This document shows positions 728 through 1,729 of a DNA stretch of 34,155 nt, in pieces. The stretch covers positions 1 to 34,155 of the forward strand of contig MNWN01000002.1 of NCBI GenBank assembly GCA_001872545.1. Reading direction: 5' to 3'. The first letter of the stretch is position 1, and each line of letters opens with the position of its first letter. The translations under genes and the position numbers were made by a program. The stretch comes from Parcubacteria group bacterium CG1_02_58_44. GTDB lineage: Bacteria > Patescibacteriota > Patescibacteriia > SG8-24. Under the pieces are notes generated by a model. That model saw only the letters and a list, made by a program, of their open reading frames with translations. It had not been told where the DNA came from and made no database searches.

Positions 728-1729
728 ATGAAGTCTAATCGTCAAAAAAAAGAGATGCTCGGAGTGCGGTGAACCGATGGACAAATACGGTCTGACCGCG
801 GCAGGGGCGCAGCGATTCCGTTGCGCCCCTTGTGGTACGACCGGAGTTCGACGGCGCAGCGACAACACACGGCGTCGTCGGACGCGACTGTTCCTGGCGT
901 GGGTCGCCCGCAAGGCGACCGTCGCCGACATCGCGGCCGGCGAGGGGGTCACTCACCACAGACGCTCTGGCGCTGGTTCGCGCCGTGCTGGGCGTCTAGG
1001 CCCGAGGCGTCGGGGCGCATCGTCTCGAGGGTGATCGTCCTCGACGCCACGGGCGTGGTCAAGCGGCTGGCGGTCGCGCTCCTCGCGGGCGACCCCGCGA
1101 CATCGCGGCCGGTCGGCTGGGGCTTCGCTCCGCGCGAATGCCTGGGCGCCTGGCTGCCGTTCCTGCTCGCGCTCGCGGAGCGCGAGGCCGACCCCGAATT
1201 CGTGGTCTGCGACGGCCGGAAGGGCCTGCTGAAGGCCATCCGCGCGGTCTGGCCGACGTCGCGCATCCAGCGCTGCGTCATTCACGTGCACCGCCAAGCC
1301 ATGGCATGGCTCACCCGGAACCCGCAGGCCGAGGCCGGTTGGGAGGTACGCCGCCTGGTTTCGGCGCTCCTGCTCGTCCGCACGACTGACGACCGCGACG
1401 AATGGCTCGGACGGCTCCAGTCGTGGGAGATGCGCCACAGCGGCTTCCTCAGGGAGCGCATTTTCGGGGACGGCGGGCGCTGGTGGTACACCCACCGGCG
1501 GCTGCGAGCCGTCCGTTCGTTGCTCCGCAACGCGGCACCCAACTTGTTCCGCTACGTCGACGACCCCAGAGTGCCGCGCACGTCGAACCACGTCGAGGGT
1601 GGACTGAACGCCAGGCTCAAGGAACTGCGTCACTCCCACCGGGGCGTCACAAGACGCCAGCACATGGCACTGGCGTCCTGGTATCTCCACCTCCGGGCGA
1701 CGAAAAAACCAACACGAAATGTTACATAG
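728..1729 (+). pseudogene. IS1249-like (IS256 group) DDE transposase, split by two frame changes
   Basis: Three segments together make one transposase. (1) ATG at 728, MKSNRQKK. (2) From the A8 run at 744-751 the homologous frame moves by one base and encodes a zinc ribbon (CSECG then CAPCG, about 756-835) followed by a helix-turn-helix-like stretch. (3) Near the G5 run at 944-948 the frame moves back, giving TLWRWF and the MULE/DDE core to the stop at 1729. Core landmarks are LDATG (first Asp), VVCDGRKGL (second Asp), QRCVIHVHR and NHVEGG (Glu). The two shifts are opposite, so the first and last segments share a frame. Without recoding the product would lack its zinc ribbon. This could be decay, programmed slippage, or homopolymer errors in the assembly. 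The ATG at 821 of the longest open frame is an artefact, because homology in that frame only begins near 950. Confidence 0.75.

Follow-up and report, generated by a model that had tools for sequence, protein, structure and literature searches.

An A-run behind the start codon as a probable recoding site in IS1249-like and related insertion sequences of Patescibacteria and other bacteria

The window, by which we mean the whole stretch of 34,155 nucleotides that was analysed (contig C46 of a genome of 51 contigs and 1.06 Mb), carries an insertion sequence whose transposase cannot be followed in a single reading frame, and the question that this locus raises is whether such a break reflects programmed recoding, decay or an error of assembly. 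The element at 650-1732 is a genuine IS1249-like insertion sequence of the IS256/Mutator type. Its inverted repeats agree at 23 of 23 positions between 652-674 and 1708-1730, and at 24 of 25 when lengthened to 650-674 on the + strand and 1708-1732 on the - strand, and an 8-bp target duplication, CCCAAAAC, flanks it at 642-649 on the left and 1733-1740 on the right. The terminal repeats and target duplication noticed in the preliminary description were found, and they agree with the IS256/Mutator type, which has terminal inverted repeats with a target duplication of 8-9 bp; for the IS256 family, the available portion of PMC3942029 gives 8 or 9 bp.

Profile comparisons place the element in the same neighbourhood. 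The DDE piece scores 45.4 bits with Pfam PF00872 Transposase_mut, above the gathering score of 21, and the ribbon piece scores 35.2 bits with the four-Cys domain NCBIfam NF048018, above its cut-off of 27. With NCBIfam NF033544 (IS1249) the window pieces reach 175.8 and 52.7 and the relative L012 reaches 226.9, all below the curated cut-off of 300; with NF048019 (IS256_Zn_var) the window DDE piece reaches 101.6 and L012 129.1, below the curated cut-off of 150, which is passed by remoter relatives with a split frame (L042, for example, at 308.7). A sigma-70 scan of 600-1800 found no promoter, no tRNA was found across the window, and searches of phages by nucleotide and by protein, together with viral contigs, returned no matches. 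Immediately beyond the element lies a perfect 20-bp inverted repeat with terminal T's (1737-1777), probably a terminator; the insertion sequence abuts this repeat, and the target duplication on the right extends into it. On the - strand of 1-180, where the contig begins, an open frame reads QYHVVWIPKYRRRILN, whose motif resembles the end of an IS200/IS605 TnpA.

Within the element, an ATG at 728 opens a leader frame of 14 codons on the + strand, MKSNRQKKEMLGVR, that extends over 728-772 and ends at a stop codon at 770-772. An A8 run occupies 744-751 of this leader, and behind it the zinc ribbon (CSEC...CAPC) and the start of a helix-turn-helix (756-953, + strand, frame mod 3 = 0, first Cys at 756) are read in another frame. 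The DDE core, at about 960-1729 on the + strand, is a single open frame that returns to the frame of ATG 728 and contains VLDATG, VCDGRKG and SNHVEGG, which are presumably the motifs of the catalytic triad. Frame reading thus bears out that the ribbon is out of frame with both the start codon and the DDE core. The core of the element has 69% GC and does not contain any A7 run.

The preliminary description had located two frame changes, one at A8 and one beside a G5 run at 944-948 (+ strand). The first of these stands, while the second has to be moved: similarity to relatives persists in the zinc frame across G5 as far as about 953, so that G5 was rejected as a slip site and the change falls at 953-960 (+ strand), 3' of G5 and outside any long homopolymer. 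Nor does it recur. Five relatives compared over this region, L016 (=L012), L017 (=L006), L018, L019 and L020, keep one frame, and L006, which is the copy from the same genome, is among them. In a sixth, L034, a frame change occurs near the same place with an offset of +1 as against +2 in the window, beside a stop codon, and a conserved second slip was rejected on these grounds. A single mechanism requiring two slips is not supported, and the two frame changes, both of them genuine, are unlike in kind. Judged from the alignment, the second change is best read as decay. It parts the ribbon from the DDE core, and the window copy is therefore probably inactive or non-autonomous, either dead or mobile in trans alone; the genome's other copy is likewise broken.

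To place the first change in context, copies were gathered from the window's own genome and from 57 relatives, from samples of the class (380 genomes) and of the phylum (379), and from plasmid records. The class sample of 380 was used twice, apparently as an identical set; four other classes were sampled with 49, 16, 13 and 55 genomes, and all samples overlap. First-Cys anchors were located via CxxC, with six adjusted by hand (the in-frame copy L069 among those corrected), and a run was counted when it comprised at least six A or T lying no more than 40 nt ahead of the first Cys. Copies with the 5' end deleted or off the contig were excluded (L025, L026/L085, L030/L052, L048, L050, L053, L061-L067, L077, L094, L097, L100 and L015/L038), as were duplicates (for example L012/L013, L014, L021, L027-L029, L031-L033, L037, L070, L087, L089-L093, L096 and L098) and one Klebsiella plasmid record, L073. 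H4 alone was taken in from the Corynebacterium matches, and two G462 element types were counted separately. This left 46 copies, among them that of the window, in which the N-terminus can be read; they are related to one another and some are near copies.

In 39 of these 46 copies a run of at least six separates the zinc ribbon from an ATG upstream, and the open ATG that most closely precedes the run is never in the core frame, being +1 in 31 of the 39 and -1 in 8 (in L084, L047 and L060 another ATG, farther off, occupies the opposite wrong frame). The split that the preliminary description had looked for in independent copies is thus present for the A-run. The run consists of A in 38 of the 39, is at least seven long in 36 and six long in three, begins 0 to 5 codons downstream of the ATG and ends no more than 25 nt past the start of the ATG. 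Once the last core-frame stop has been passed, none of the split copies has an ATG, GTG or TTG in that frame before the first Cys is reached. The exception in composition, L022, reads T7A4, and its T-run is followed by a stop in the core frame ahead of the first Cys; this copy is no simple fit to a slippage model. Six copies (L019, L020, L034, L051, L068 and L069) have an in-frame ATG and no run, and L049, a broken copy with A5, was left unclassified. The split family is spread over Patescibacteria and is also found in plasmids of Campylobacterota and Bacteroidota, including complete plasmid records of Aliarcobacter and Emticicia.

Within the IS1249-like group, from ATG to first Cys there are 28 nt in the split copies (the window copy, L016, L017 and L018) and 27 nt in the in-frame copies L019, L020 and L034; the four split leader peptides, MKSNRQKK, MSINYTKK, MGINLQKK and MIPNRHKK, are similar, as judged by eye, to the three in-frame N-termini, MTINANRK, MTLSGARK and MTLSGPRK. 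As a separate observation, the start codon is central in a palindrome in L017, L018, L019, L020 and L034, with fold z-scores of -2.4 to -4.3 whether the copy is split or in frame, and a weak counterpart in the window copy (z 0.5); this palindrome may hide the start or act as an operator. In three other split copies, L043, L046 and L099, a weak hairpin with a Shine-Dalgarno sequence in its loop lies just 5' of the ATG, at a level that is not significant against shuffles.

The run was set against several controls. Runs of at least seven A or T occur in 36 of 39 N-terminal windows of 42 nt from split copies (the window copy counted), as against 7 of 657 windows deeper in the same genes and 7 of 166 starts of other long open reading frames. 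All 39 copies have an open ATG no more than 33 nt upstream of the run, where shuffles lead one to expect 11.2. Counted from the first Cys, the core frame stays open for at least 300 codons in 30 of the 39 (L101 unmeasured), and the ribbon is retained in 37, partly by construction since the anchors were located by CxxC. A Shine-Dalgarno-like tetramer accompanies 11 of the 39 ATGs against 3.3 expected, and initiation at the remaining 28 is less certain for that reason. A stimulatory hairpin upstream of the run was rejected as a general feature, since z falls below -2 in 4 of 38 copies and in 2 of 35 control stretches.

Identities between copies point to recent movement of split elements. In Aliarcobacter cibarius the element, on plasmid pACIB, shares 100% identity with two interrupted copies, one on a plasmid of A. 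butzleri and the other on pACIB itself, and all three Aliarcobacter copies have A7. In G462, three left ends are identical over at least 261 nt with differing flanks, A8 and the +1 relation, five right ends are identical over at least 275 nt, again with differing flanks, and a further copy on C51 also has A8 and the +1 relation. Two copies in Emticicia oligotrophica DSM 17448 have A8, and the right end of L012 is found again at another site with 102 nt in common. On a tree of 44 rows, built by a quick method, split versus in-frame requires at least four changes, all three states require nine and the -1 state at least five; L078 (+1) and its sister L079 (-1) share an A7 run. Out-of-frameness over a short A-run seems to have been maintained, and to have been gained or lost several times along with the run itself.

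We regard the A-run behind the start codon as probably a programmed recoding site that works by transcriptional slippage. RNA polymerase would slip on the A6-A8 run and yield mRNAs of unequal length, of which only the slipped minority would link the AUG to the frame of the zinc ribbon and DDE core, and this requirement would keep the transposase scarce. That slippage happens, that it is transcriptional and that it serves to limit transposition are all inferred from comparison of the copies. What makes the transcriptional route the most likely one is that both directions occur, and varying direction within a transposase family is described as a mark of transcriptional realignment in the portions of Antonov et al. 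2013 (PMC3711429) available to us. Two features by which realignment may be recognized are seen here, a homopolymer run kept at the frame change in independent copies (39 of 46) and a direction of shift that is not conserved, with the -1 state needing at least five changes. Against slippage speak L022, the farther ATGs of L084, L047 and L060, the many ATGs lacking a clear Shine-Dalgarno sequence, the missing general hairpin, and also run length, as most runs are of seven or eight and three are of six, compared with the nine A from which, according to the part of Baranov et al. 2005 (PMC1088944) at hand, selection against runs mostly sets in; for IS1447, seven A's are reported to be enough, with slippage in both directions, in the available text of Liu et al. 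2018 (PMC6211511). Among the three origins that the preliminary description had left side by side, recoding suits the first change and decay the second, while assembly error is very unlikely at the A-run because many assemblies, as well as complete plasmid records, show the same split.

The same run could in principle be read by the ribosome, with tRNA-Lys re-pairing +1 or -1 on AAA AAA while the mRNA stays unaltered. AAA AAA Lys codons do stand in the ATG frame of most split copies, re-pairing on A7 or A8 is possible, and poly-A sites may serve either mechanism (PMC3711429, in the part available). Programmed ribosomal frameshifting is nevertheless unlikely in our estimation. The mixture of 31 +1 and 8 -1 copies bears the mark of realignment just described, and ribosomal frameshifting of the +1 type is stated, in the sections of Atkins et al. 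2016 (PMC5009743) at our disposal, to be unidentified in IS elements. Frameshifting of the IS1/IS3 type would be -1 throughout with a zero-frame heptamer, yet 31 of the 39 copies are +1 and an X_XXY_YYZ heptamer in the zero frame, read by eye, is present in only two of the eight -1 copies (L095 and L101). The shift would, moreover, fall within about the first nine codons. We thus favour transcriptional slippage as the probable mechanism.

Explanations that dispense with recoding fare worse. If the A8 were a copy-specific or assembly indel, through fresh decay or homopolymer error, the brokenness of the second copy in the same genome would be understandable, and decay does suit the second frame change; but the disagreement repeats in 39 of 46 copies, complete plasmid records among them, the core stays open for at least 300 codons in 30 of 39, and the recent movement of split copies makes decay unlikely for the first change, so that we give this reading hardly any credence. 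In DNA, A7 and A8 runs can be unstable, and replication slippage might toggle the gene on and off as phase variation. The run and an in-frame start are, however, found together in none of the 39, and near-identical copies keep its length (A7 in three from Aliarcobacter, A8 in three from G462 and A8 in two from Emticicia), which leaves phase variation just as hard to credit. Marginally better placed, and still very improbable, is a start without recoding, either from a non-AUG codon that is in frame with the core or by restart within the ribbon. Directly upstream of the run, the window copy, L016, L017 and L018 do have an ATC or ATT in the core frame, but a core-frame stop 3 to 5 codons ahead of the first Cys leaves scarcely any room in 21 of 39; and since 28 of 39 have no ATG, GTG or TTG in the core frame between the first Cys and the second CxxC, restart at a usual start codon would lose the ribbon.

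If slippage at the start codon is the correct reading, one more widespread IS family joins the short list of recoders, and the real N-terminus of such transposases, together with the zinc ribbon, may escape annotation pipelines. The annotated gene of Aliarcobacter cibarius begins 300 nt within the matched core, and the public annotations of L071, L074 and L075 use an internal start, omit the zinc ribbon and name the product 'hypothetical protein' or 'transposase'. As the direction of the slip differs among close relatives, the family offers a natural comparative test of transcriptional versus ribosomal frameshifting. To our knowledge little is known about transcription fidelity in Patescibacteria; in our judgement, A7-A8 runs may be productive slippage sites there.

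Among described families, NF048019 and NF033544 share with the present elements an N-terminal four-Cys ribbon and a Mutator-type DDE core. For NF048019, many of the split copies score above the cut-off; the window element lies below both cut-offs and scores higher with NF033544 than with NF048019. The names of the two models make no mention of recoding. True IS1249 elements from Collinsella (L068) and C. striatum (L069) have the start in frame and no run, unlike the split copies. The Collinsella record L068 (NZ_OY725723.1) is a circular 'plasmid' of 1,628 bp with an IS1249 transposase as its sole annotated gene, and a 900-kb record from this species also contains an IS1249 match; the circle is perhaps an excised IS circle.

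The nearest precedent that we found within the same superfamily is the -1 prediction for the ISMich2 group (Mutator superfamily, p-MULT 4), a separate family with two ORFs and -1 shifts only (PMC3942029, in part); the available part of that paper holds no recoding prediction for the IS256 family. We found no report of recoding in IS256 or IS1249 elements among the matches listed from the open-licence literature, and no paper on the subject for Patescibacteria or the Candidate Phyla Radiation in that literature. Insertion sequences with transcriptional slippage include IS1447 (IS3 family), elements of Deinococcus, Nostoc and Roseiflexus, and the IS630 family, and as far as the available portions of PMC6211511, PMC1088944, PMC3711429 and PMC5009743 describe them, they resemble the present family in having a slippery run, an out-of-frame transposase and, in some families, both directions. 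In those systems, as described in the same portions, the slip generally joins the catalytic ORF to one that precedes it and often encodes a DNA-binding regulator, whereas here the run lies 0-5 codons past the ATG and there is therefore no upstream regulatory protein. We lean towards the view that the whole family, the IS256 Zn-variant and IS1249-like elements together, carries a direction-blind slippage switch directly behind the start codon, kept out of frame and acting as a pure damper of expression in which no ORF A regulator takes part. Recoding at this point, ahead of any domain, would be a new form of a known kind of recoding.
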